The notes beneath the pieces were generated by a model. That model saw only the letters and a program-made list of their open reading frames with translations, ran no database searches and was not told the DNA's origin. The position numbers and the translations under genes were made by a program. From Byssothecium circinans (lineage: Eukaryota > Ascomycota > Dothideomycetes > Pleosporales > Massarinaceae), in assembly GCA_010015675.1 (NCBI GenBank), contig ML976982.1, positions 699,341 to 763,340 on the forward strand: a DNA stretch of 64,000 nucleotides, read 5' to 3'. This document shows, one piece after another, positions 3,605-54,800 of the stretch (within the stretch, counting starts at the first letter, position 1; every line of letters begins with the position of its first letter).

Positions 3605-4444
3605 CTACTCTTCACTGGTTTCCCAGGGCCCCTCCACTGTCCTACCGTGTACGTGCCACATACCACCCTTCGGTCTCCACATTGCCGTAATAGTTGGTGG
3701 AAGTATCTCGTGCTGACACTTCCGCCACACATCGCTTGCGTCCATTCTCTCGGTGTCAAAATCGATTTTGGAGACTGCTCTGAAGTCGAAGCGCTCGTAG
3801 AGTTGTTTTCCCATGGCGGAGGCTTCCATCCAGCACTCAACACCGAGTTCATCGGCGCGTGTGGTGCCGACATTCATCAGCATGGAACCAACGCCATGGC
3901 GCCTATGGCTTGGTATAACAGCCATCCAGTTCAGTGCTGAGGTGTGTTAGACGCATTCTTTACCGGAATTGAACAGATAGAGGAGTCCCAGGTACTAACC
4001 AAGAAAGGCTTTTCGCATCCACCGAACCCTCGGAAGAGTCACTTGATGCAGTATGGCTTCGCAGAATTCTCGATATTCCCCCTCAGGCCACCAGGGCGCT
4101 TCGTGCTTGGCATGTCCATTCGCAAATGGGTTCGACGTAAAGATCTGCCATTGGCAACAGCCAACTGCTTCCCCAGATTCCTTTTCGACAACGTAGAACC
4201 AGTGACTGGATGGATCTGCAAGATGTTGGTCCCAGAACCGCTGCTTCGCCTCTTGGAATGATGTTGCTCGATCTGCAGGCGTATATCCCAAGACGGGGAA
4301 GACGATCTGGACGAAGGGATCGTAAGGTGAGTAATTCGCGGCCCAAATCACTTCCATAATAGCATCCATTTCCTCCTTCTCTTTGGCCTCTTTCAGCACA
4401 TATTTGGACGCCATCTTGTACGCCGGTTTCTCCACTGAACCCAT
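3605..4444 (-). CDS. GNAT-family N-acetyltransferase
   Basis: A GCN5-related acetyltransferase, expected to move an acetyl group from acetyl-CoA to an amine; the substrate is not predictable. There are two exons: 4444-4001 plus one base at 4000, then 3936-3605, with intron 3999-3937 (GTTAGT donor, CTAAC branch, CAG acceptor). Splicing restores the GNAT motif A region, where a segment ending MAVIPSH is followed by RRHGVGSMLM, the expected acetyl-CoA pyrophosphate loop (R/Q-x-x-G-x-G/A). The product is about 258 aa, a usual length, with no signal peptide. It is divergent from the UstYa-like gene across 476 bp, so the two may share a promoter. A role in peptide tailoring is only inference from that position. 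Confidence 0.85.
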
Positions 4445-4920
4445 GGCTCAAAATTTATTGAAAAAGGAGAGAAGAAAGCAACTTCCCCATTAGCGACGAC
4501 CGACCCCTCTCGAAGCAAGTTTCAGGATCCCCTCATCCAGAAGGTCTGTTGGAGATAAGTGTTCAGTACATTGTTTGGTCGGCCAAGCTCGAAAAGGAAG
4601 GCGCTGTTTGCAGATTAGCGGCGTCTCGGCGGCGAGTCTCGGTCACACCAGCGGCAAACACCACAGCCAACCTAGGAACCGTCCCTCACCTCTCGGTCAA
4701 TCAGAGCACGCGTCGCACATGTATCACATTTATTGTCACATTCGCCTGCGATAATGATTCCTTTTTGCACGGCTCATCCGCTAGGGAGCTCCGGCTACGT
4801 GGTCCGAAATCGGCCACGCCGCAATTCATCGGTGGCCCGAGCGCCGGTGAATGCGTATGAAGACAAACGACTAACGACGCGTGGCTGCAATATTAACGTG
4901 GGAATAGCAGAATAGATTTG
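4445..4920. promoter_or_regulatory. divergent intergenic region between acetyltransferase and UstYa-like gene
   Basis: A 476-bp gap separates the start codons of two divergent genes and must hold both promoters. It is moderately GC-rich around 4610-4680, with several CGG/GCC triplets of the type bound by zinc-cluster factors. I see no precise palindrome that could be assigned to a named regulator. Confidence 0.45.
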
Positions 4921-5937
4921 ATGGTAAGATCTATTCTGTTAGATGAAAAGGATCTGCTTTCGGACTCTAGCAACAGCGACATGGCTCCGGTTCACGACTA
5001 TCAACGTTTAAATGAGGAAGAGAGTGAGAATGTGGAAGAGAAAGGCCTGGGTGTAGATTGGAGCGATGGTTCTCAGATCATCCCGACCCATACGCGAAGT
5101 TTCATCATCTTCATGTCCTTTTTCCTGATCTCCATCTCGGCGAATGTGTTGCTGGTTCTCGATAACGCGCGGCTTAAAAACGAAGGTCGAGACTGGGGAA
5201 AAACGAAGTACAGTAAGTGAAAACATCCCGTCTGTGAGGTCATGGACTGATATTTCACAGGTAGAATCACTTTCGATACCCATATTCCCTTCCACTCTTT
5301 CACAGATTACTGGGGTCCAAACGTCAGTCGAGAAGAGTTGGATGCCGCCTGGGATGCTATAGATACGAACCCTATGGCGATCTCACTTCACGATGACTAT
5401 GCCAGAGATGTTGGGCTCGGACCATCCACACGCTTTCCTTGGGATACTGAGCGCAGCATTTACTACATCAAAGGCTTCCACGATATACACTGCTTGGTAT
5501 GCCTTGTTTGATAAGTTTAAGTCTGCAGCTGACGACTGTAACAGAAACTCATACGCAAAGCCATAGTCTCCAAACATTACGGAGAAAACCATACCTTCTC
5601 CCTCCACCACCTCTTCCATTGTCTGGATGGACTGCGACAGGACATCATGTGTACGGCTGACGACACGCCCATGCCAGCCGCAGTAGCTCACCACGTTGGA
5701 GATGGGCAAGTTCGCAGATGCCGAGACTGGAGCAAACTGACAGCATGGGCTACGCGTCCAGATCAGCATGCTTGTCACGAATTCGACGATTACCGTGAAG
5801 CTACAAATACGCTAGAGTTGTTTGCTCATTGCCCTGGAAATTCGCCATATCGGCCGGTCATGGAAGCCTACTTTGAGTATCATGGGCATAAGGACGCATA
5901 TGAAGGGAAGGCTAAGGGGCATGAGATCGTGTTTTGA
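4921..5937 (+). CDS. UstYa-like (DUF3328) peptide-modifying oxidase
   Basis: A member of the UstYa/DUF3328 family, whose studied members oxidise and cyclise ribosomal peptides in ustiloxin-type pathways and tailor some nonribosomal peptides. Three exons, 4921-5212, 5261-5496 and 5545-5937, with two 48-nt introns, encode about 306 aa. A cytosolic N-terminus rich in Asp/Glu is followed by one membrane segment (about residues 60-80, FIIFMSFFLISISANVLLVL) and a lumenal domain. The two family signature motifs HxxHC are present: HDIHC at the end of exon 2 and HLFHC in exon 3. Both are thought to bind the metal. The start is uncertain: ATG 4921 is followed by GTAAGA, and ATG 4981 would give a more typical N-terminus. 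The repeat precursor lies 0.7 kb downstream on the same strand. Confidence 0.88.
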
Positions 5938-6572
5938 TCCGATGGTGGATGCCGTATTCCTGGTTCAAGGGATGTTTGGTGCAAGGCGTGGAAGGCTATT
6001 CAATGTTACATGCAGTCTTTTGCAACCAAGGAAAGAGAATACCTCATTTCGAATAATATTCCCGACGGCCCCACCCAAGTTGAAAGGACGACTGCGGGTA
6101 ACACGCCGAGCGCCATAAAAACTCCTCAAAGAAACTTCTGCCAGCTACCATGGTACTTCAAGCTCCAACCGTTACATCCACGGCAAACTGAGCTGCCCCA
6201 ACATCATAGCTCAAGATCAGCCGGCGCCTCCCGTTCTGGCCGCGGCTTCCACAGATAGAGGCTCTTCCACCCCATAAGGAGTGGACCGACCTTCACCGCT
6301 ACTATCACATGTGTGCGAGTTCTTTGTCCTTGCGTCAGTTGTGTGGTTGTTGTGGAACCGAAGTGACCGCGAAGGAACGGTCCGCCTGAGACATATCCGC
6401 CTCATAGTCCATTTTAAGGTTTTGCTTGATGGAAAATGACTGTGGAGACAGGCCTTCCCGCTATAGGAGAGCTCCGTGTTCTTCTGTTCGATCGGGTACT
6501 TATTGAAGGCAGTGTTGTGTCTGTCAAATTTCAATTGAACCCTCTCTCATTGACTACTACTCCACGAATACA
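5938..6572. other. intergenic gap between UstYa-like gene and precursor
   Basis: This 635-bp stretch holds the 3' end of the UstYa-like transcript and the promoter and 5' leader of the precursor gene. Frames of 80-105 codons on both strands overlap one another and show no domain. I find no second UstYa homologue, tyrosinase or protease here. Confidence 0.5.
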
Positions 6573-6624
6573 GTGAGCCTCACAAACCCCACATTCGGAG
6601 TAATTCACTAACTTGAATGCGTAG
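6573..6624 (+). other. predicted 5'-leader intron of the precursor gene
   Basis: A 52-nt GTGAGC...TAG segment with a CACTAAC branch site at 6606-6612, twelve bases before the acceptor. If it is spliced, the upstream ATG at 6617 is removed and translation begins at ATG 6647, directly at a clean signal peptide. That is why 6647 was chosen as the start. Confidence 0.6.
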
Positions 6625-6646
6625 AAAATTTGGAAAACATTTCATC

Positions 6647-6874
6647 ATGCGATCGCTCAACTTCCTCCTCCTTGCGACCATCGCTATCGCAGCGCCCGCC
6701 ACCCCGGTCATCAAAGTTGACGCCATTCAACCCATCCAAGTCGACAGGCGCGCGACTCCAGAGGTCCTGAACACAATTGAGCCTATTCATGTGGATCGTC
6801 GTTCTGCCCCCGCGATTGATGCCGTCATTGAAGACCCGACACGTGTCGACAGACGGGATGCTCTAGACTTGTAA
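6647..6874 (+). CDS. secreted Kex2-repeat peptide precursor, candidate RiPP precursor
   Basis: A 75-aa precursor. Residues 1-16 form a signal peptide (MRSLNFLLLATIAIAA). Three imperfect tandem units follow, about residues 17-35, 36-52 and 53-70, each ending in VDRR, a dibasic Kex2-type site; a five-residue tail (DALDL) closes the protein. Units 1 and 2 share I-x-P-I-x-V-D before the RR, while unit 3 is divergent (IEDPTRVD). A signal peptide, short repeats and Kex2 sites next to a UstYa-like gene is the layout of dikaritin-type RiPP precursors. The repeats contain no Tyr, Phe or Trp, unlike the known ustiloxin, phomopsin and asperipin cores. The alternative is an unmodified Kex2-processed secreted repeat protein. 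No close family member is recognised. Confidence 0.75.
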   Translation: MRSLNFLLLATIAIAAPATPVIKVDAIQPIQVDRRATPEVLNTIEPIHVDRRSAPAIDAVIEDPTRVDRRDALDL

Positions 6875-6969: not shown

Positions 6970-8115
6970 TCACGACAACAGTAACTAGGAAGGCACTCTT
7001 CCGCACGCTTGCGGCCCGTCTGTTGTACTTCCATTCTCGATTGTCTGTCATTACCTATGCTGCAAACTTCTTTCTTTAGAATAATCAAGTTCTTCTCCCT
7101 AGCGGCAGTAGCTCCGGATGAATGAATGCAAACCGAATTCGCATTGCCGCAGTTTCCGATACACCTTCCATGATTGACGTCGTACACAAATGTTCCAGGC
7201 CCATCCTATGACCTACATGCGGATATCTAAAAAGGGAAGCGGATTGGTATGTTTCACAGCGGCACTACAGTTCCTTCAATCTCCCACAGCAACTTCTGTG
7301 ATACAATACACAAGCCACTGTGCTACATGAGGATCTTCACCGCTTACCGCGGCGATCTCAACATCCGAATCTTGGAAGCGTATTCGGACTAGTAAGTGAC
7401 GACGTTTGTCTCAGCTCGCGATGCAAAAAGGGCGGAAGGCGTTCACCATTCCGCTTCATTTCCCTTCGCTCAGCTGAGATGGACTGAGTGGCCAGTGTAT
7501 GACAACAAGTTGGAAGCGCAAGCGATCTATTTGAGTGACGTATTCCCCATGGTCGCACTGCCTCGGCTCGCCGTCAATGAAGGAATGGAACCTGTAACCT
7601 TATGATGCCTCCTTGCATTGGCTTCCGTTCATCTTTCCCCTCATGTGCCTCTTAACTTAACCGTACGTGCCACACGCACCACGTACACAAAACCCACCCA
7701 GAGGGTAGGGTCACAAGATGTGTAGGGAGGAGAGGCAAGCGATATCGCTTCCATCATTTTCTAACTCGTCTGCACGTGTCGACTCGATAGTATAGAAAAT
7801 ATAGGAAACACAAACAATTGACTGAATGTGAACACTTGCCGTACATCTGCGCTTGAAGGTCGCGCCGCGCATCTAATTTCTGCATCAAGTCCATCTAATC
7901 GTTTGTGACTGCCATACCTTCCTGTCGAACATACCACACCCATTCTTCCATCTTGCGACCTTTGATTTCGGTGCTGTCGCTCAAGCCCTTTTAGCCTATC
8001 CTTCATCCCGCTGTCCGTCCGTCTGTTCGTTCGTTCGTTCGTTCACACACGGGCCAGCGCCCGCGCAACTCGCTCGCACGTACCCAATCAGTCATACTAC
8101 TACAATGCTAATGCC
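6970..8115. other. intergenic region downstream of the precursor
   Basis: No gene is recognised in about 1.1 kb. Frames of up to 80 codons on both strands lack domains and splice support. The right end is the leader of the PTH11-like gene, pyrimidine-rich with a short GTTC microsatellite. Confidence 0.5.
8025..8044 (+). repeat. GTTC tetranucleotide microsatellite
   Basis: Five perfect GTTC units, preceded by degenerate GTCC/GTCT units, about 70 bp before the PTH11-like start codon. Confidence 0.85.
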
Positions 8116-9764
8116 ATGACAAGCACCGGAGCGACAAGTATCCACGAGCGCGTCCTTTCTTTACCTCTCAATCAGGTGCCACGACAACCGGGCTCAGAAA
8201 GCAATCTCGGACCGTTTCTAAACGTGGTGACCTGGATTCTGCTCATCACTGAGGCGTTGGCTGTGTTGACGCGGTTGGTGACTAAGAGGGCGCTTAAGAG
8301 GAGGATTGATGTTGATGATGCTTTTGTTGTTGCTGCTTTGGTTCGTCTTATCTTTTATTGGGTGAGATTGATGGGGTTGTGGGATGTGAGCTGACTACTC
8401 TTTGAAGCTGGCTAGTATAGGGTCTGGGATCGCGGTTACGGTCCAGACGGAAAATGGCCTTGGACGGGATATTGCAGTATTGACGGAAGCCCAGATTGCG
8501 ACTTATGAGAAGGTATGCATTTGACCCTCTATTCGTCATTCGACTCTCCACACCTATCCACTTCACCCTTTGGATCCATGGCGCGCTTCAATTTACCCCA
8601 GTATTTTTTCCTTTGCGAGTTATGCGCTGACGCTAGACAATGCAGGCCGAATATGCAAACAAACTCCTCTACATCGCGACCCTAGCTCTCGCCAAGCTAT
8701 CGATAATATCGCTCTTGATGATTCTCACCGCTTCCGATCTGCATAGGATACTTGGCATCGGGTTGACGGTTTTGATTGCTCTGTGGGGGATTGTGTCGGA
8801 GTTTGTTGCTGCATTTCAATGTGGGACGACGCAGCCGTGGCGGTTCATTGGAATGGAGACGAGGTGCCTTAGTATGGTAAGTTCTCTTGGGGTACTCTTT
8901 TGGGATGATGAAGACAGGACTGCAAATGGGTGTCAAGAAGTGGAAAAATGCTGACGACATGTGATAGTTGGCGTTCTGGCGCAGTGTTGGCGCCCTCAAC
9001 ATGGCGACAGATCTCTGCCTGATCATGTTCCCAGTGCACGTCATCTGCACTTTACAAATGAGTCTGGGAAAAAAGATTACGATTCTGGGATTCTTCGGTG
9101 CGCGGTCACTGTAAGTCGCTTTCCCATACTTCATGCGTTAAAACCTGACGAGTTCAGCGACATAATAGCCACCGCAATCCATATATCCTACGTTCCCGCT
9201 TTCGACTCTCCAAACCCCACCCGCGCTCTCTGGAAATGGACCCTCCTAGCTCAAATCATCGAATGCATTACAATCCTCACCTCCTGCGTCCCGTATCTCC
9301 GTCCACTCCTCGAATCGCTCCCCTCAGGTCTCTACGGCGCAGACGAACTGCGTCGGCGCGGAACACCGTCTGAGCTCGGATACTCTAGAAATCGAAGCAA
9401 AGACGACTCCTATAAACTCAGCTCCACGAAATCGTTCGTACATTCACCTGAAAAGCGCAGGAAAAGTAGTCATGGTGAAGGAGGGATAAGGAGGTTTCTG
9501 CCAATGCTGAGTGAGGATACGAGTCATATGAATTCGGCGAGTGGATTGCCTGGGGGCCTGAGACGTCCGGATGGGGAGACGGGGGTTGAGATCTCGGCGC
9601 ATAGGGATGAGGGGGATGTGGATGTGGGGAAGTGGGAGACGGATAGTACGGGGAGTCAGGCGAAGATTGTGAAGACTACGGTCGTGAGCGCGGAGTGGGA
9701 GGAGAGGGTGTGTAATAGGAGGTTTGAGGGGGGAGATGGGGATGGGATTGATGTTGTGAGGTGA
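8116..9764 (+). CDS. PTH11-like / rhodopsin-domain integral membrane protein
   Basis: A fungal seven-helix membrane protein of the large PTH11-like (SAT4/rhodopsin-domain) group; such proteins are mostly uncharacterised and some are surface-sensing receptors. Five exons: 8116-8340 (or 8361), 8408-8512, 8646-8876, 8968-9110 and 9158-9764, giving about 436 aa. Landmarks are helix 1 (about residues 33-53), the RIDVDDAF motif before helix 2, ENGLGRD, the AEYANKLLYI helix, an extracellular loop with FQCGTTQPW, and NMATDLCLIMFPV. The last helix is followed by a hydrophilic tail of about 150 aa rich in Ser, Lys, Arg and Glu, probably cytosolic. The first donor is ambiguous: GTTCGT at 8341 gives the usual family spacing, GTGAGA at 8362 is the better splice signal. 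Confidence 0.85.
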
Positions 9765-11355: not shown

Positions 11356-13327
11356 ATGGAGAAAACTATCGATCTCCAGACTTTTGAGGATGAGTTCCGG
11401 CAGAGAGCCAAAAGCTCCGTTTCGGAGGCGAAGGGCGTCAATGATTTTGATCGCGACAGGTATGAGCTTGCGCGGGCGGGAAAAGAGCAGGTTCTGAAGG
11501 TTCGTGAATGATCAGTGGCTATAACATTCAAGATGCTAATACTGGCAGCGACGCTTCGGATTGGTTTCGATGACTGGTCTATCATGCGGTCTCATGTGCA
11601 CTTGGGAAAGTATATTAGTGTACGCTTCCCATATACTCGAGCAAACTCAGTCTAACCAGCCTCAAGAGTCTTCTCAATAGGCTTCGGAAAGTAAGTGCGG
11701 TCGCTACCTTCGTTTGAGACGCGGAAACTGATTGCAATTGAATAGTGGTGGTCCTGCAGGTTTGATATACGGGTTTCTTCTCGTCTGGCTCGGAAACATC
11801 TCCGTGTTCATGGTCATCGGCGAACTATCGAGCGCAATACCCACAGCTGGTGGGCAATACCATTGGGTCTCATTACTAGCACCACGCTCGAGCAAGAGGT
11901 TCTTCAGCTACATTACGGGTATCTTCATCCCATCACCTTCGGAGAACGAGATCCACACTAACATCTCGAACTAGGATGGCTCACGGTCGTCGGTTGGATT
12001 GCCGCGTTGACAGCCGTCTGTTTCTTTGTCGCCGATCTCACGTTGGGTCTTATCAGCCTGAACACCTCCCATTATACTCGGGAGCTATGGCACGGCACAC
12101 TCCTCCTATGGGGTACGTTGCTTCTTTCTGTGTTCATCAACATCTTTGTCAGCGGTGCGCTGCCTACCATTGAAGTTATCGTTTTGATCATCCACGTTCT
12201 GGGCTTCTTTGGCATCTTGATACCGCTGGTCTATTTGACGCCGTTCCATCATTCGGCGAAGGAGATCTTTACGACTTTCCACAACATGGGAGGATGGCAG
12301 AGTAAAGCTCTGGCCTTCTTTGTAGGTTTACAGGGCAATGCTCTGGCGTTCGTGGGCACGGATTCCGCTGTACATGTAAGTATCAAGGGTTGGCGAAAGT
12401 GCGCGGCGCTAACAAACTCTGTAGATGTCAGAGGAAGTCAAGAACGCCAGTACAGATGTTGCGCGCTCAATGCTTCTGAGTCTCGTAATCAATGGCTGTC
12501 TCGCTCTCGGCATGCTCTGCGCCGTGCTCTTCAGCGCTCCGGACATTGCCGAAATACTCGAGCAGGGCACGCCTATCCCAGCCTTTATGCACATCTTCGC
12601 CCACGCCACGGGCTCGAATGTCGGCGCCACAATCATGACGGCCATAATCATTGCGCTCGAATTCTGTAGCGCGATGGGTTGCTTGGCCGCTGCTTCGCGC
12701 ATGACTTGGTCTTTTGCACGAGATCGTGGTCTCCCATTTTCGCGAGCACTCAGTATGGTATGTTATGTTAATATTGGTTCGAGGTGATGGGAGCAAGAAA
12801 CTGATATAATATAGATCGATAAACGCACCACCATCCCCGTCGTCGCCATCATCATAGTAACAACCTGTTCGGCGCTCCTCGCCCTCATCAACATCGGCAA
12901 CAACGCCGCCTTCAACGGCACAATCTCCCTCGTCCTCGAAGGCTTCTACATCTCCTACCTCCTCGCCATCGGGCTCCTCCTCTGGCGCCGCCTCCGCGGA
13001 GACCTCGACACACCCAACTCTTCCCTCACAGCTTTTAGCTCGACGGCCCAACACGACGAGAGCCATGACCGTAGCTTGACGTGGGGTCCTTGGCGCATCA
13101 AGGGCGTTTGGGGAACGATTAATAATGTAGTCGCTTGTTGCTACCTCACGCTCATGGTGTTCTTCAGCTTCTGGCCTAATCAGTTTCATCTGGTGAATCC
13201 GGGCCAGATGAATTGGGCCGTGGTTGTTACGGGTGGTGTGGCTGTTTTTAGTCTGGGGTATTATCTTGTCTATGCGAAGAAGTCGTACACTGGACCGGTG
13301 GTGGAGGTGGATCCGCATGTGCTTTGA
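11356..13327 (+). CDS. amino-acid/choline/GABA permease (APC superfamily)
   Basis: A plasma-membrane permease of the fungal GABA/choline (AAT/ACT) group that imports amino acids or related amines with protons; the exact substrate is not readable. Seven exons: 11356-11499, 11549-11619, 11667-11690 (only 24 nt), 11746-11918, 11975-12375, 12425-12757 and 12815-13327. They join in frame to about 552 aa, the usual length, with about twelve hydrophobic segments. Family marks are RRFG before helix 1, NGGPAG, ELSSAIPTAGGQYHW, GTDSAVH followed by MSEEVKNAS, and SRMTWSFARDRGLPFS. The N-terminal 60 residues are hydrophilic and cytosolic. No cluster context is apparent. Confidence 0.93.
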
Positions 13328-34613: not shown

Positions 34614-35200
34614 AGTGACTGATGAGGCCGTTCTCCGAAGGGAATGCCCTCCATTTTAAAGTGTAGGAAATATCCGTGAGGCTCTGGGCTGCCTGATTGC
34701 CCAGAAGCTAGCGTAAGTCGAGCTGAAACGCATTCAAGGCTGAGCTGAGTGATATGTGCCGTTTTGGCAAATGAGGGCTGCGATTTGGATGTGACAGCTC
34801 GTGATCACGACGCCCCCATCACGTCAGCTGCGCCATTGGAGGAGCCATACGAGTTCGTTACCGTACTTCACTCCGCGCCGGCCCAGGTCAGTCGTCAGCC
34901 TGGTTACGCGTCGAGAGAATAGGACGGTCAGAAGTGAGAAAGTGTGGACGCCAGGTTTTTGACCAATGTGAGACGGGAGGATGCGGGAAGGGCGAATGCG
35001 GGAGCTATGCTCGATTGAGTCTAGCGCTATCCGAGCCTTCACCCGAAGTGCTATCTCATGTTGACTACCATCTCAACGCACGAGACACAATTCTATCTCC
35101 CTGTGGAAGATTTCACACCACCACCGTCCTAAGGTTCTCTCCAGTCTACAACTTCGACTACTTCAGCAAAAAACACGTACAAAGACAGCATTACTTACTC
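34614..35200. promoter_or_regulatory. divergent region between the oxidoreductase fusion and the GH13 amylase
   Basis: A 587-bp divergent intergenic region. A GTG-initiated frame runs into the amylase from 34934, but its upstream part has no family features, so I treat it as leader. Candidate regulator sites are not distinct enough to name. Confidence 0.4.
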
Positions 35201-36871
35201 ATGTGCGACAATCCCACGATCTTCCAATCTTTCGAGTGGAACCTCCCCGCAGACCGCCAACACTACAAGCGTTTGCTTAATGCTCTCCCAACTCTATATT
35301 CCCTCGGAATAACGGCATTATGGCTTCCACCTGCCTGTAAAGCCGGCAACTCCGACGGCAACGGCTATGACGTATACGACCTCTACGACTTGGGAGAGTT
35401 TGAGCAACGCGGCTCTCGATCAACGAAATGGGGTTCCAAAGAGGACCTTATGCTTCTCACCTCAAAAGCAAAAGAGCTTAATTTGGACTTGATCTTCGAT
35501 GCGGTGTTAAATCATCGATGTGGTGGCGATGCGAAGGAGACGGTGACGGCGGTGGAAGTCGACCAAAACCATCGAATGAAAGAATTGTGTGAGCCTAAAG
35601 CTATCGAAGTGTGGCTACAGTATCATTTTCCCGGAAGAGAAAGTAAATATAGTGATATGAAGTACAATTGGCGCATGTTCAATGCGAGCGATTGGGACGA
35701 CGGATCGCAAAAACATGCAATTTGGCGCATCACAGACGATGGGAAATGTTGGGCAGACGACGTCTCGAATGAATGGGGTAACGGTGACTATCTCATGTTC
35801 AACAACCTCGATTACACCAATCACGAACTCAGAGAGGACGTCAAGAATTGGGGCGTTTGGGTAACGAAGGAGCTGAACCTTGCGGGGTTCAGATTAGATG
35901 CCATGCAGCACTTCTCGCAGCGTTTCTCGACCGAGTGGATAACGCATGTGAGAGAGGAAATAGGGCGGGATATCTTAATGGTTGGCGAATATTGGAATGG
36001 AAACGTGGACATCCTTGCCGATTTTTTAAGACGATCTCCCGAGGACCTGCACCTTTATGATGCGCCTCTGCTCTACAATTTTGGTCGACTTTCCTGGTCG
36101 AAGAGACCAGACCTAAGAAGAGTATTCGACCGGACACTTGTCAAGTTGCGGCCAGAGAATGCAGTGACATTAGTCATGAATCACGACACACAGTAAGCGC
36201 TACGCTCCACCCTTTTGTACGGTATGCCTAACATATCTAGAAAAGGACAAGTCATGGATACTCCCATCCATCCTGAATTCACCTCTCTCGCTTACTCCCT
36301 CATCTTGCTACGGCAACATGGTTACCCATGCGTTTTCTACGGCGATTGGTATGGCACATCCGAGCCGCACCCTTCGCCTCCAACATGTAACGGAAAGCTC
36401 GCAGACCTAGTCCTAGCGCGCAAGCTCTACGCGTACGGCGAGCAGCGAGACTACTTTGGCGACGCAAATTGTATCGGATGGATTCGGCAAGGTTTGATCC
36501 GGGATGGTGAAAAGAGCCAACGTTCTGGTATGGCTGTTGTGATGAGCTGGGTTGGGCAAGACCATGGAAAGCCGCATCAAGAGCCTAACTCCGTGAGAAG
36601 ACCGAGCTGGATTAGACGGCTGTCTGGTCTGACGGGGAGGTTCGGCGTTGCACCCAAGCACCCGTGCCGATTTCATAAGAAAATGAATATCGGGGCACAC
36701 CACGCCGGCGAAGTGTGGACCGACCTTCTGAAAGGTTCATCGGAGAGGGTGGATATCGGATATGACGGTTATGGTGTGTTCCCGTGCGAGAGAAATAGCG
36801 TCGCCGTATACGTTTCGGCAAATGCCGTTGGGAGGTCCCAGTTTCCAGTCTCCTTCATTGCGTCGATATAG
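35201..36871 (+). CDS. intracellular alpha-amylase, GH13 subfamily 5 type
   Basis: A glycoside hydrolase cutting alpha-1,4 glucans, of the bacterial-liquefying type that in fungi is cytosolic and is linked in some species to cell-wall alpha-glucan synthesis (AMY1/AmyD type). Exons 35201-36192 and 36241-36871 encode 540 aa. The start MCDNPTIFQSFEWNLPADRQ and the absence of a signal peptide fit a cytosolic enzyme. Catalytic residues are visible: nucleophile Asp233 in GFRLDAMQHF, acid Glu263 in VGEYWNG and Asp329 in NHDTQ. Spacing matches bacterial liquefying amylases closely. Region I reads DAVLNHR. The intron falls inside the codon after the third catalytic Asp motif. Confidence 0.93.
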
Positions 36872-37429
36872 GAAGAATCCATCATCGGTACTTACCATAG
36901 GTAGGTACCGACATGAACATCTCAACACCCTGCGTCCTTGACGCGAATTAATGGACATTGTTAATAGTTCAAATGTTACCCATGCGAGTATCTCGTCCAC
37001 GGATCCATCGATGTATCAGGTATGATCATGTGATCTTGGTCATGTGATTTGCATTTTACAACACTGAAGTGCTTCCTGCCCGCGCAAATGGTAAAGCGAA
37101 GGCCGTTGTTATAGTGTATATAGGAGCAGGTATACTTACAGTACAGAGCGGCAATGTACGTATGTATTGCATCCAACTCCAACTCTGATGGACCTTGATA
37201 AATCACCGCATATCGACTCGTCAAGACACCAAGGAAGGGGATCGAACAGATGGACGAACTTTACAAAAATGTTTCCAAGACTTCCTTACCGCGAGAGTCT
37301 CCTACGTGGACCTACATGTAGGTATATAACTTTGACCAGTCCTTGCTGGATCTGGTTAGGACGAAATTTGTCGCTTTCCCGCACGGAAGCTTATCTCCCG
37401 TCTACAGCAACACCTCACCCCGTCGACAA
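36872..37429. promoter_or_regulatory. intergenic region between amylase and Zn2Cys6 gene
   Basis: About 560 bp with the 3' end of the amylase and the promoter of the zinc-cluster gene. TATATA-like words occur at about 37114 and 37322. No gene is seen. Confidence 0.4.
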
Positions 37430-39725
37430 ATGGATCGCGACACGAGGCCACGACAGCGCCGAAGAGTTCGTGTCGTCCCTGAAGGAGCGCGAGTTCGCGC
37501 CTCCCGGGCATGTACGAGCTGCCGGCGGTTGAAGGAGAAATGCGACGGCAATCAGCCTTGCGCACGATGTCGCCGGACGAAGCGCACTTGTGAATTTACC
37601 ACCGCCGAGGCCCATCCTCCTCCTGCAAAAGCAGAAGACTTCGAAAGAGTGCGGCTCCTGGAACAGTTGGCAGTTCATTTCCTGGGTCCAGTATCGCTTG
37701 ACACGAGCAGCCTTCGCCATATAATCGATCGCATCGGCAAGAAACCAGGAGATAACAGCAATGACTTTGAACTCAGCATAGAGAACGAACTTAACGATCT
37801 CACGTTAGAGGAAGAGCATGACGCGGTCAAACTAATATCGCCAAGCACAGCCCACTACTCGGGCGACTTTTCCCATTGGAGGTTTTCGCAACGCGTCCGA
37901 CGACTGGTTGATGAACATCTGGATGGTATCCACCCATCAAACGAGTCCGTCGACAAAGCAAGGGAGATGCAGGTTCTCGAGTATTGGCGCGCCACTCAGC
38001 TTCAATCCACAGGCTCCCATGTCCTCAACACACTGGATTATCTCCCAACTCGCCGAGTTGCAAACAACTACTTTCAATACTACTTCCAGTACGCGCAGAC
38101 TAATACCTTTTTCGTCGATCCTATCTGGTTACGTACTAAGCTCGACATACTATACACGCAGCCAACCCACTTGAACACCGCCGACTCCCCATGGGTGTGC
38201 ACTGTGCTTATGGTTCTAGCCACTGGTTTTCAATTTGCGCATATGGCTGAGGGGTCGTTTACTGCCCCTTTACTCTACGCAACTTCCGAAGAAGATCAGC
38301 TTCAGAATCGGGATGCCAGTCGAGTTTTCTATCGGATGTCAACGATGCTTGTTCCGGATATAATCACCAGTGCATCTATGGAGAGCGTGCAAGCATGCTT
38401 ACTACTCGCGCACTACACTCTTCCTCTCGATACGCATGGGCTCGCTTACACCTACCTTGGCTTAGCCATGAAGTTGGCGATTCAGAACGGCATGCATTGC
38501 AAATATGCCGGAGGCGATCTAGACCAATGGACAATCGAGATGCGGAATAGACTTTGGTGGTCAACTTACTCCCTAGAAAGGTAATTAAATTGAGTACGGG
38601 ATGGTACACTTTGATTTGCTAACAATTGGTGAACAGGAGAATAAGTGTATTGCATGGCCGCCCAACCTCGATCGTACCCAGTGAAATGGATGCCGACTTG
38701 CCACAAGATATTGATATTCTTCAATCGATCGAGTATCCCTTCAGTTTCCAAAATGCTCTGACTCTCATTCACATGACCAACGATCTCAGCGATGTATCGC
38801 AAGCCATGTCAGTGTCACCCAACTAAACGTTTGGCTTTCGCGCTGACAATACACAAGCACGAAGCTCACACGGTGTCCCAAATCTTTACAGTCAACCCAC
38901 TTCAGGAATGTCTTGGACAAACACGAGAAGTTCTATGTGTCGTGGAAAGCAGCACTGGAAACTGTTGGTGATCCTTTGCACTCATTACCATCGCCTCGAG
39001 CACGGGTGCATCTAAAACTCTACTTCAACATCTTCGAAATCTTCATTGGACGACCGTTCATGTTCACCAACACAAAACAATCGCACCTAGCGCACTCAAA
39101 TTCACAAGATCAATTCCCGTCTTCGCAAAGGGCTAGTACCAGAGCATTGCTTGTCGATACGGCTATAAAAGCCGCGCATCAAGCGATTGAGCTTCTCCAC
39201 AACCTCAATCAGAGTACTGGACTTGCGCGAGCAAGCTATATCGAGTTCAGTGCATGTCGTGCAGCGCTACTCATCCTATTGGCACAGAGCCTAAACGAGC
39301 AATCAGCACAACTGAACACGACAATAGCTCTTGGAATGGGGCTCATTCGGTTGATGGTCTCCGGGAATATACAGTCGGCTAAAGCAGAAGTGTCGGTGAT
39401 TGAGGCGCTCGAAGAAGCTATTTGCCGCCTTCACGCGCGCCGAAAATCACACGATCATAACGGATTAGTTTCGGTTCAGTTGGACCATAGTCAAGAGCAG
39501 AACAACTACGTACAGTTCGAAGACTGGACTTCACTATGGGACGACCTTGGTAGGGGGATGACCCAGAATTTTCCTGGAGACGACTTCGCCATCTCGCTGC
39601 AACTGTCGGCGCTCCCCGAGTCGACTGCTTGGTCTCAGGGCAACAACGCTGCAGGAATTACCGATGCATACAGTTTCTCGAGTTTTCCTGATATTGAAAA
39701 TGCAACATTTTCAAGCTTTTCCTAG
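37430..39725 (+). CDS. Zn2Cys6 transcription factor with fungal-specific regulatory domain
   Basis: A nuclear DNA-binding regulator. Exons 37430-38580, 38637-38807 and 38858-39725 encode 729 aa. The N-terminus is basic (RPRQRRRVRVV) and is followed by a complete zinc cluster with Cys28, 31, 38, 44, 47 and 54 (C-x2-C-x6-C-x5-C-x2-C-x6-C), binding CGG-type half sites. Residues about 210-500 form the fungal-specific transcription-factor middle-homology domain (TNTFFVDPIWL, LLLAHYTLP, LAMKLAIQNGMH, RNRLWWSTYSLER, ISVLHGRPTSI). The C-terminus is acidic and aromatic-rich, a possible activation region. It lies next to the GH13 amylase, but it is not recognisable as AmyR; targets are unknown. Confidence 0.93.
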
Positions 39726-43972: not shown

Positions 43973-45921
43973 CTACCTCCATTCACTTAACACACTCGCA
44001 CTCGCCTGACAAGACGGAACAGTGTACAAGCGATTCGGATCCGCCTCCCACGCCACACTTCCCGAGCTAGACACCTTGAGAAACTTATACTGCACAGAAG
44101 ACCCCGCAGGCAAGCTCAGCGTGACAATCCAAATCGGGTTGCTAGCAGTATACGAGGATGCCGACAATGCCGGTGCACTCCCGGGATCCCAGCTCCCCAA
44201 CTGCGCCGTATTCCCCGCAATCCTAATCGTATCCCCGGGCACCGTCACAACCTTTTCCGTAAACGTCACGCTCACAGACGAGGGACATCCCGGCGCCGCT
44301 GTTGTAGTCGGAGCTGTACTGGTACTTGTTAGTTGCGCAGTGGTGGTAATCAATGTGGTAGTAGGAGCACTCGAATCGGAAAGAAGGACGACAGGTTCGC
44401 CGTTAGAAACAGTGACACAAAGTTGGCCGCCGGAATCGGAAGTTACTGTTCCGCTGCCGAAGACGTTCATCCATCGGCCGTTCGCTCTCTGCGCGTTGAA
44501 ACAGTGTTGTTGCGAGTTCCCGCTTCCGGCATTGGTAGTCAACACGACGAGGTTACCGCCTGCGCGGCTGAACGCGTAAGCGGTGGAGGAGACGTAGAGA
44601 TGCACTTGGTCGTTTCCAGCGAGGCCGCCGGCGGATTTACGCGCCCCAATGAGTTTTGTAAGCGCTTTGTAGAGGTCGCTGTTTGTGTTGAAGTTGCTGC
44701 GCCAGAGATCCTCGCGGTTTGCGGGGTCGTTGCCGCCGGCGTAGGCTTGCTCGGTGCCATAGTAGATGATGGGGATTCCGCGAGAGAGGATCACATAGGC
44801 TAAGGCATTTTTAAAGAGGGATTGATCGTTCTTTTGGTTAAGCCAGCGTGTGTTATCATGGTTATCGAGGAAAGTGCCCAACTGTTCAATTCAAAGTCAG
44901 TGTAGGTCTTACATGAAGTCCGTACGTTGGCCTTCTTACCGCGCTCGGGTCGGGCAACTTGGAGCTAACTGCGTTGTGCATGTCGACAAGATCCTGCGAT
45001 GAACCTTTCTGTTGGAAGAATCGATTCATCGGGTAGTAGATTGCATAGTCGAGTAGACCGGGTAGGGCTTTGGAGTAGCCGGCAAGGTAGTCTGGATTTC
45101 CGTCAAAAACCTCGCCGATGCAGTACACGCCCGCGGCGGCAGAGAAACCAGCCCAGAAGTCCTTCTCAACATGTCTGACTGTGTCGATACGCAGACCATC
45201 AAAGGAATACTCCATCACGAGCCACTTGATCCAGTTTTGGAACAGTGTTCGTATGGCGGGGGACTGGGTGTTGATATCAGGCAGGCCGGCAAGGCGGCAA
45301 TTCTCGACGCTGTTCTGATCGTTATAGTTGATGTCGCAGTTGCTGTGGTAGGATGAAGCTTGATTGAGAGGCTCGGGGCGATTGTCGCTTATGGCCGCGT
45401 TACCCATATGGTTTGCTACAACGTCGGCCATAACGAACATTCCCTAGACATAGATCAGATGATGTTCAAGTGAAGAGAATTGTTGGCCAGCGTACCTTTG
45501 AGTGTGCCGTGCTGACGAGACGCTTGAGGTCTGCCGCAGTGCCATAGTTCGAATTGATCGAGTACAGGTCTTGCGCCCAGTATCCATGGTATCCCCCAGC
45601 ACTGTCTGATGTTACGTTGTCAGAGCGATATGTCTAAAATAGGAACAAAAAGCACTCACTCGCAATTACAGGGGTAATCCAAATTGCATCGAACCCCATA
45701 CCCCGAATGTAGTCAAGCTTTGACTCAAGCCCATTGAAAGTACCACCACAGTAGTTCCCAAGGTTATTGCATGCGCCCCCTCCCGTGTCACCGCTGGAAC
45801 GAGCAACACGGTCGGTCAAGGCGAAGTAGATAGTCCGCGACTTCCAGGCATTGGCATCTGCGGCCGAGACGATGGCAGTTGCTTGGAGAAGGAAAGTTAT
45901 CAAAGAATGGAAAAGCTGCAT
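43973..45921 (-). CDS. secreted alpha-amylase (GH13_1) with C-terminal CBM20 starch-binding domain
   Basis: An extracellular starch-cutting enzyme of the Taka-amylase type. Exons 45921-45660, 45605-45496, 45443-44940 and 44881-43973 encode 594 aa. A signal peptide ([20 protein letters not shown]) is followed by the barrel. Catalytic residues are Asp211 in [10 protein letters not shown], Glu235 in CIGEVFDG and Asp301 in FLDNHDNTR, near the positions in Taka-amylase. Region I is DVVANH. A Thr/Ser-rich linker (about residues 460-490) leads to a CBM20 domain ([37 protein letters not shown]) that ends VLSEWR. This is the second alpha-amylase in the window, of a different subfamily from the cytosolic one at 35.2 kb. 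Confidence 0.96.
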
Positions 45922-51813: not shown

Positions 51814-54800
51814 ATGCCACATTCACGCCAAAACGGCGATGGCGTTATCCGGACGGCTTCGGGGAGGGAAACGTATGCTCCAGATGGGCATTACAGTGAG
51901 CAGGAAAGAGCTGAGTCTCGTGATACTGAAGCCACACCAAGATCCTCTAGCGATTCTTCGAACGCCAGATTCGCACCAATGAAGGCACCGAATGAATTCA
52001 ACGAGAAGGCCGAGCTTGCACCGAAACTCACACGAAGAAGAACTGAGGTTGAGATTCCTGATGAGGACCGACAAGAGCTACAGCAGCTTTACTCTGCACT
52101 ATCACGCCGACAATCGACACTCGCCTCACCCGACGACCCCCGAGTCGATCCGTCGAACCCGGATTTTGACTTGCCAAAGTTCTTGAAGATGTTTGGAAAT
52201 CAGCTTGAGAATGAGGGCATGTAAGTGTGATCTCTGAGCAAGCCTTGGAGCAATACTGACTTATTATCTAGTCCGATGCGGAAAGTCGGTCTTGTCTATA
52301 GGAACCTAAATGTATATGGATCGGGCGCGGCACTTCAGCTGCAGAAGACGGTTGCGGACTTCCTACTAGCACCACTCCGCATGGGCGAGTGGTTCAGTTT
52401 CGGCAAAAAATATCGCAAGCACATTCTTCGCAATTTCGATGGCGTCATCCGCAGCGGTGAGATGCTTATCGTCCTGGGGCGGCCGGGTTCCGGATGCAGT
52501 ACGCTACTCAAGACCATGTGCGGCGAGCTTCACGGGCTGGAGACAAGCGACGAATCGGTTGTGCATTACAACGGTATTCCTCAAAAGCAAATGATGAAGG
52601 AATTCAAGGGTGAAGCCATCTACAACCAAGAAGTGAGTATCGCAAGTCACTGCTTCTGGCCCAAACACTAATCTCTGTGCAGGTAGACAAGCATTTCCCG
52701 CACCTAACAGTAGGCCAAACTCTCGAGTTTGCAGCAGCTACGCGAACTCCATCGCATCGTATCCAAGGAATGTCCCGAGAAGAGTTCTTCAAATTCATCG
52801 CCAAAGTTATCATGGCGGTTGTGGGCCTCAGCCATACTTACAACACCAAAGTGGGAAACGACTTCATTCGCGGAGTCTCTGGAGGTGAGAGGAAGAGGGT
52901 ATCTATCGCCGAGATGATGGTGGCTGGTGCTCCGTTCGCCGCCTGGGATAATAGTACCAGAGGTCTGGATTCTGGTAAGCCTCTCCTTCGCGGTAGCGAA
53001 ATCTCGGGAAATCAGCCTGCAACAATACTCCATAAAACCCAACCACGGGTGATACAGTCCCTTATGGGCACCCTGAATTGCTAAGCTTTAGTGGTGGCGC
53101 GAGTTTATCTTTCTGCGAGAGGCATCGCCAGCTGAACCCGCATAACGCATTTTACTAACCTATCTCCAGCAACTGCTTTCAAATTCGTCCAGTCGTTGAG
53201 GGTCGCCTCCGACTTCGGTGGTAGTGCCTCCGCGGTGGCCATCTATCAAGCTAGCCAGAGCATATACGATATCTTCGACAAAGCTACAGTTCTCTACGAA
53301 GGGCGTCAAATTTACTTCGGTCCAGCGGATTCTGCGCGAGACTTCTTCGAGCGACAAGGCTGGCTATGCCCTCCACGACAGACAACCGGCGACTTCCTCA
53401 CAAGTATCACAAACCCTGGAGAGCGACAGGCTCGAAAAGGTATGGAGAGCAAGGTTCCACGAACACCGGAAGACTTTGAACGCTACTGGAGGGAATCACC
53501 CGAGTACAAACAACTCCAGGATGAAATCTATGAGTACGAACAGAATCATCCTGTGGAGAGTGAGAGTGAGGCTCTTGCACAGCTCCGCCAGCAGAAGAAC
53601 TTCGTTCAGGCGAAGCGCGTCCGTCCTCAGTCACCCTTCATCATCAGTGTCCCTATGCAAATCCGATTAAACACGATGAGGGCGTACCAGCGCATCCGAG
53701 GTGACATTGTAGCCACTGCTACCCAATTCTGCCTCAATATCGTCATGGCCCTCATCGTCGGTTCCATCTTCTTCGGCAATCCTGACGCTACAGCTGGCTT
53801 CTTTGCCAAAGGCTCCGTTCTTTTTCTCGCTATGCTATTCAACGCCCTTAGCGCTCTTGGCGAGATTAACAGTCTATATGCACAACGATCCATCGTCGAG
53901 AAGCATGCCAGCTACGCTTTCTATCATCCATTCACCGAGGCAATGGCGGGTATCGTATCTGACGTGCCAGTCAAATTTGTGCAGGCGGTTGGTTTCAACA
54001 TCATTCTCTACTTCATGTCGGGACTTCGCCGGGAGCCGGGCCAATTCTTCCTATACTTTCTCATCACCTACATCTCTACGTTTGTGAGTCAACTCCTAAG
54101 CACAAAGTTTGCTAAGTGCTTTTTCTAGCTCTAAGACATTGGGTTTTCCGGTCTGGGAGTTAACACGAAGTGCACTGACGCCCCTCGAGATGAGCACTGC
54201 TAACTTTATACCCCCTACTAGGTAATGTCGGCAGTTTTCAGGACTATGGCAGCTTTGACCAAAACGGTCTCACAGGCTATGGCTCTTTCTGGAGTACTGG
54301 TCTTAGCTCTGGTCATCTAGTAGGTGAATCTTTGCCGTGAGTCAACTCTCACTAACAGATCTCCAGTACCGGCTTCGTCGTCGCAGTTCCCAACATGCAT
54401 CCGTGGTTCAGCTGGATCCGTTGGATCAACCCGGTCTTCTACGTTTTCGAAATTCTTATTGCCAACGAGTTCCACGGACGCGAATTCACCTGTTCAGCAA
54501 TCATTCCCGACTATACACCATTGCAAGGTGGTTCCTGGATCTGCAATATCGTTGGAGCGATTCCCGGCCGGCGCACAGTGAGTGGAGATGACTTTATTGC
54601 GACCAGCTACGGATACTCGTACTCTCATGTATGGCGCAACTTCGGTATTCTCCTAGCCTTCCTCTTCTTCTTCATGGCCATCTACTTTGTCGCCATCGAG
54701 CTCAACTCATCAACATCGAGCGCGGCTGAGGTCCTGGTCTTTCAACGCGGCCATGTCCCTGCGTATCTTCAGAAGAATAGCAAGGGTGCCAATTCTGACG

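Follow-up and report, generated by a model that had tools for sequence, protein, structure and literature searches.

In the survey of Umemura 2020, 7878 Kex2-processed repeat proteins (KEPs) were recorded in 1345 of 1461 strains (PMC7329392), a KEP being defined by an ER signal recognised by SignalP, at least three tandem repeats of at least eight amino acids between Kex2 sites, and a repeat score above 0.6. The neighbourhood counts given in that survey place DUF3328 genes within 15 genes of 1758 of the 7878 KEPs (22%), and these counts are highest at the immediately adjacent gene; Tyr-containing repeats make up 65.6% of those beside DUF3328 genes and 38.2% elsewhere, and 2560 of the 7878 KEPs are listed as lacking homologues (PMC7329392). 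The same source describes the asperipin-2a pathway as possessing a single DUF3328 protein, and the known ring chemistry as requiring Tyr, the aromatic ring of which is used in the ether bonds of asperipin (PMC7329392). For phomopsin, as summarised in PMC10880069, gene inactivations strongly suggested that the PhomYc, PhomYd and PhomYe proteins form the dehydro-Ile, dehydro-Asp and dehydro-Pro residues of this compound.

The term dikaritin has been drawn with different boundaries. In the description by Ding, it comprises a tyrosinase, multiple DUF3328 proteins, a methyltransferase, a transporter or peptidase, and a precursor with a leader and a repeated core, while that of Montalban-Lopez 2021, as cited in the same text, lets the class be defined by an enzyme, a DUF3328 protein with two HxxHC motifs, whose substrate is a ribosomal precursor (PMC12048977). 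The precursors of dikaritins carry on average five repeats according to PMC10512285. The account in PMC12048977 also places UstYa proteins in polyketide and nonribosomal clusters, and describes in lichens of the Parmeliaceae a Clan R2 in which GNAT genes flank the only UstY gene and in which neither a tyrosinase nor a repeat precursor was recognised.

The window considered here is a stretch of 64,000 nucleotides on contig C6 (positions 699341-763340) of a 48.4-Mb genome assembly consisting of 109 contigs. Its forward strand contains a gene for a UstYa-family (PF11807/DUF3328) oxidase (4981..5937, +) that is followed, 709 bases beyond its stop codon and on the same strand, by an ORF for a predicted secreted precursor of 75 amino acids with three VDRR-ended units (6647..6874, +, stop codon included), precisely as a sequence-only reading of this DNA had described the second gene.

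The UstYa gene is composed of three exons (4981-5212, 5261-5496 and 5545-5937) separated by two introns (5213-5260 and 5497-5544). Four splicing combinations read through, and the chosen one aligns without gaps to homologous proteins at both junctions. Translation could also begin at position 4921, as the sequence-only reading had it, which would yield a protein of 306 amino acids; the homologues used for the alignment of the start and the junctions (16 of 78, giving 17 rows) begin, however, at or near residue 21 of this longer form, so that a start at 4981 is the likelier one and the protein probably comprises 286 amino acids. The remainder of the earlier description of this enzyme holds. The Pfam profile PF11807 matches it with 98 bits (E 9.7e-28; cut-off 25), a single hydrophobic membrane segment lies near residues 40-60 of the 286-residue form, and two HxxHC motifs are present (HDIHC at residue 151, HLFHC at residue 178), whose two His residues and Cys are invariant across all 17 rows. 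With a profile score above the cut-off, both motifs and an N-terminal membrane anchor, the protein has the features of the UstYa family.

The precursor ORF begins with a signal-like N-terminus, as judged by a hydropathy rule, and an in-frame ATG upstream at 6617 would extend it to 85 amino acids. Its VDRR sequences, the predicted Kex2 sites, end at residues 35, 52 and 70 and are encoded at 6740..6751 (GTCGACAGGCGC), 6791..6802 (GTGGATCGTCGT) and 6845..6856 (GTCGACAGACGG), all on the forward strand. The units ending in them are similar but diverged and not identical, and the first is bounded upstream by the signal peptide and not by a Kex2 site; a stretch of the form I-x-P-I-x-V-D is common to the first two. 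Tyr, Trp, Phe and Cys are all absent from the secreted part, Phe occurring only within the signal peptide. Two of the predicted peptides, ATPEVLNTIEPIHVD and SAPAIDAVIEDPTRVD, have computed [M+H]+ values of 1647.8588 and 1668.8439, respectively, in unmodified form.

Could this short ORF simply be non-coding? A first-order Markov simulation of 223.6 Mb, set to the composition of the window, produced only three ORFs carrying three or more identical xx[KR]R sites, all of them lacking a signal-like start; the real window contains one ORF with both features. The window and 20 other UstYa loci of the genome together hold 112 ORFs with a signal-like start, of which six contain at least three dibasic-delimited segments; the similarity of the segments to each other ranks the precursor third of these six (mean z 5.07). 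Two obvious KEPs score higher (12.8 and 6.4), and the remaining three score far lower, at 0.3 or less. Furthermore, all four codons of the second VDRR copy deviate from those used in the first and third, and the first and third copies have the Val and Asp codons in common and differ in both Arg codons, the residues being identical throughout; the retention of VDRR under such synonymous change argues for selection on the peptide. We conclude from the simulated rate, the similarity of the repeats and the preserved VDRR residues that the precursor ORF is a real gene and not a chance product. The ORF is short and has no homologue in the collections searched, but in view of the above a non-coding nature is improbable. 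Still further from likely, to the point of being negligible, is the idea that the ORF encodes an alpha-type mating pheromone. A signal-like start and Kex2-delimited units would suit such a peptide, but the PYG[L/M]P[I/V]G motif, which the alpha pheromones of Pleosporales are reported to carry (PMC6339444), is absent from the precursor, on which ground this identity is rejected; moreover, all but three of the pheromone KEPs are given as lacking DUF3328 neighbours (PMC7329392).

The locus resembles the KEP plus DUF3328 loci described in PMC7329392 by the signal-like start of the precursor, its three dibasic-ended units and the UstYa gene as the next recognised gene; it differs from them in that there are only three units, that these have diverged, and that none contains Tyr. 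With 65.6% of the DUF3328-linked repeats containing Tyr in that survey, Tyr-free ones must be a sizeable minority. The asperipin-2a locus likewise combines one UstYa-family gene with a KEP, but its ethers are described as using the Tyr ring, which the window precursor cannot offer, and no reductase was found among the 20 window ORFs that were put to Pfam. PhomYc, PhomYd and PhomYe are thought to act on Ile, Asp and Pro, all of which occur in the I-x-P-I-x-V-D stretch; the phomopsin system differs by its five DUF3328 genes, its tyrosinase and its Tyr-containing core. The lichen Clan R2, as outlined in PMC12048977, is comparable in layout only, through a single UstY gene with adjoining GNAT and the lack of a tyrosinase or known dikaritin accessory genes; it has two conserved flanking GNAT genes and no recognised repeat precursor, whereas the window has one GNAT gene and a visible precursor.

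When the two descriptions of dikaritins are laid over the locus, that of Ding finds neither a tyrosinase nor multiple DUF3328 genes, since none of the 30 matches to the tyrosinase profile PF00264 in the genome, and only one match to PF11807, fall on contig C6; a leader with repeated core motifs is provided by the precursor, albeit with diverged repeats. In the sense of Montalban-Lopez, a DUF3328 protein with two HxxHC motifs is present, and its action on the precursor is what we infer. The sequence-only reading, which had proposed a dikaritin-like RiPP locus on the basis of this gene pair, was thus right about the pair and about the lack of a tyrosinase and a second UstYa gene, here extended to the entire contig, and no methyltransferase was detected among the 20 ORFs put to Pfam; the analogy to dikaritins itself is weak, given a precursor without Tyr, Trp, Phe or Cys and a contig without tyrosinase. 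Its remark that such a locus would be unusually small agrees with the missing tyrosinase and the lone UstYa gene, but a small locus with a single UstYa-family gene is already known in asperipin-2a.

A true dikaritin with a macrocycle closed by a Tyr side-chain ether, of the ustiloxin, phomopsin or asperipin type, would be consistent with a KEP-like precursor whose neighbouring UstYa protein carries two HxxHC motifs. The ring chemistry of all three has Tyr in the core, and since the secreted part of the window precursor has none, such a macrocycle is impossible for it and is excluded; the repeats are, in addition, not near-identical, and the tyrosinase and further UstYa genes are missing from the contig as set out above. 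This explanation could be rescued only by another, unseen precursor, and we regard it as highly improbable.

Within the window, the Pfam matches among the 20 ORFs are of general kinds, namely acetyltransferases, an amino-acid permease, RNase H, amylases, a regulator, an ABC transporter, a histidine kinase and a few others, and nothing among them points to a wider cluster. Of the transporters, the permease (11962-13327) lies about 5 kb downstream and the ABC transporter (53136-54128) about 46 kb away, and neither displays any sign of membership with the UstYa-precursor pair. The 9 kb upstream of the window (L031) contain no signal-like ORF with at least two dibasic sites. Promoter motifs common to the genes were sought in 4440-6680, where only short repeats turned up (seven direct families and four inverted pairs) that look like chance. 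Farther along the window, a Zn2Cys6 regulator is flanked by two alpha-amylase matches, the second of which carries a CBM20 starch-binding domain according to Pfam; these three features (34805-36196, +; 37322-38584, +; 43973-44890, -) are possibly a starch-use cluster.

One neighbour merits closer consideration. A GNAT acetyltransferase gene (3605..4444, -; PF13508 38.6 bits, PF00583 35.2 bits) is divergently oriented to the UstYa gene, their start codons lying 536 bases apart, and encodes about 258 amino acids in the best of three splice models, with an intron at about 3999-3937; the sequence-only reading had made no mention of it. It may belong to the locus and is treated here as a possible partner; the protein has no visible signal peptide, so that an action on a peptide within the secretory pathway is not obvious. 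In the genome, a GNAT match occurs within 3 kb at two of the 39 UstYa places, against an expected 0.22 (manual merging of the genome matches had given 39 places for UstYa, 46 for GNAT and 18 for tyrosinase). As the window pair prompted the question, the single remaining place is weak by numbers alone; it deserves attention through its likeness to the window on both sides. In this second divergent pair (L032; G000:C9:1343600-1353500; UstYa at about 4340-4760, -; GNAT at about 5551-6305, +), the UstYa match is the best-scoring paralogue of the window protein in the exon compared, and the GNAT protein is 28-35% identical to that of the window. No KEP was found in the 9.9 kb of this locus, although one split by an intron could be missed. 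Two contigs, C1 and C59, carry GNAT genes that are about as similar to the window GNAT as the one on C9, yet no UstYa match lies close to them.

Genome-wide, PF11807 gave 56 exon matches that correspond to 39 places. Clear KEPs with near-identical repeats were found at three of the 20 other UstYa loci scanned (L014, L022 and L025; the scan left aside rows of arginine runs or low complexity and also L009, which duplicates the window match), and the pairing of KEPs with UstYa genes is therefore a habit of this genome. At L014 (G000:C9:1174100-1184000), the ORF 7672-8256 (+) encodes many near-identical VPDADTSYERFQDDV repeats with Tyr and Phe about 1.6 kb downstream of the UstYa match on the same strand; this is a far more typical dikaritin-like locus than that in the window. 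The KEP at L022 (G000:C37:251800-261700; ORF 6050-6589, +) has nine GWKIS repeats and is divergent to its UstYa match; with Trp and no Tyr, it represents another Tyr-free UstYa-linked precursor. That at L025 (G000:C1:596000-605900; about 2310-2585, -) carries KYYAYDF-type repeats with Tyr and has UstYa matches nearby; an exon farther upstream seems to encode its signal peptide, for which reason the broad dibasic scan missed it.

How closely the window enzyme is related to the UstYa proteins of these KEP loci was judged from one exon (17 segments from 16 of 21 loci, L022 lying outside this set). The best scores came from L032, with 61 bits, and L021, with 53 bits, two loci at which no KEP was found, whereas L025 (28 bits) scored lowest and L014 (34 bits) third lowest; L022 was middling (38.9 bits) in a separate earlier comparison.

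The two genes of the pair contrast sharply in their distribution. The UstYa protein has 78 relatives at E values up to 1e-3, the named pleosporalean ones being 53-82% identical and the closest coming from Massarina and Periconia, and its orthogroup is present across many pleosporalean genera. A tree of 35 proteins, which included 34 of the 78 homologues (those with a species name, without metagenome rows lacking one and without several partial rows), groups them, one odd row aside, much like the taxonomy of Pleosporales, and the orthogroup is apparently vertically inherited. By this single gene tree, the genome is probably that of a pleosporalean fungus close to Massarina. Scans of prokaryote and virus contig collections with the UstYa alignment gave no match, as expected; a second alignment comprised 41 of the 78 homologues. 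Two named proteins among the relatives (P0024 and P0066) are questionable: a 'Curvularia kusanoi' protein that the tree places among those of Didymella, Boeremia and Ascochyta, and one from a 'Quercus suber' record; both records are likely mislabelled or contaminated. The precursor, on the other hand, has no homologue at E values up to 10 among 5.8 billion proteins, in which two queries, the second with its own repeat block written twice so as to admit longer relatives, returned 2 and 165 candidates; in its own genome only the precursor itself and one chance-level match (E 3.9) were found. A precursor without relatives can be accounted for by short genes that escape annotation and by cores that change fast.

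The locus is best grouped with the KEP plus UstYa loci, as one whose core lacks Tyr, which has a single UstYa gene and for which a GNAT protein is a possible partner, and we infer that the pair makes a modified peptide. Speaking for the pair are the identity and motifs of the enzyme, the reality of the precursor gene, the KEPs at other UstYa loci, and the calculation that, for 37 UstYa loci in the genome, a randomly placed KEP has a chance of only about 0.25% of lying 1 kb or less from any of them, so that their proximity is unlikely to be due to chance. Speaking against it are the orphan status of the precursor beside a widespread enzyme, the dedicated substrate of which should be as widely kept, though cores evolve fast; the lack of Tyr, in spite of its enrichment in DUF3328-linked repeats; and the nearness of the enzyme to those of L032 and L021, where no KEP was found, and its distance from those of L025 and L014. 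That the UstYa protein modifies the VDRR precursor peptide in a very small RiPP-like locus is, taking all of this together, a proposition to which we give an even chance.

The principal competitor holds that the UstYa and GNAT genes are an old, vertically inherited two-gene module for another substrate, which could be a small metabolite or else the peptide product of some distant gene, and that the VDRR precursor is an independent bystander KEP giving rise to linear secreted peptides. Its main argument is the contrast between the widespread enzyme and the orphan precursor, and it accounts well for a UstYa tree that resembles the species grouping known for Pleosporales, for the C9 pair, which is related to the window on both sides and at which no KEP was found, for a GNAT protein that would act in the cytosol, and for the UstYa proteins reported from polyketide and nonribosomal clusters (PMC12048977). 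It has to accept the low chance rate of the adjacency, however, and the enrichment of UstYa genes next to KEPs recorded for fungi (PMC7329392), and the module on which it builds depends on two of 39 places, one of which prompted the question, with GNAT genes on C1 and C59 that are about as similar as the C9 one but stand apart from any UstYa match. We consider this explanation a serious one that falls somewhat short of an even chance. A bolder proposal would reconcile the module with the precursor: the UstYa-GNAT module, widely kept in Pleosporales, would form the centre of a RiPP pathway separate from dikaritins and would oxidise Tyr-free, Kex2-released peptides on aliphatic residues, the fast-evolving VDRR precursor being of a kind that went unrecognised in Clan R2. 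We rate this as unlikely.

If the UstYa protein does modify the VDRR precursor, the latter would enter the secretory pathway, where Kex2 would cut after RR and a Kex1-like trimming would leave peptides of 15-18 residues ending in VD. The lumenal domain of the UstYa protein could meet these peptides there and oxidise aliphatic residues of the I-x-P-I-x-V-D stretch by desaturation or hydroxylation, as proposed for PhomYc, PhomYd and PhomYe, and the modified product would be secreted. The presence of Ile, Pro and Asp in this stretch, together with the phomopsin precedent, makes aliphatic oxidation a natural hypothesis, and by this analogy it seems likelier that Ile, Pro, Val or Asp would be desaturated or hydroxylated than that a Tyr ether would form. 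Should the pair indeed work together, it would be a minimal system of one oxidase and a 75-residue precursor without tyrosine, in which the aliphatic chemistry of UstYa proteins could be reconstituted and studied without a tyrosinase step; since the UstYa orthogroup occurs in many pleosporalean genera, the same question can be asked in many species.

Elsewhere in the genome, tyrosinase matches lie 1.1, 3.3 and 8.9 kb from UstYa matches (C26:436370, C28:399085 and C34:434483, respectively), where 0.29 would be expected within 10 kb, and these regions are likely fuller dikaritin-type clusters. In the contig pairs C89/C94 and C103/C104, a UstYa or tyrosinase match recurs with an unchanged score on both members, and these are perhaps duplicated or haplotype contigs.
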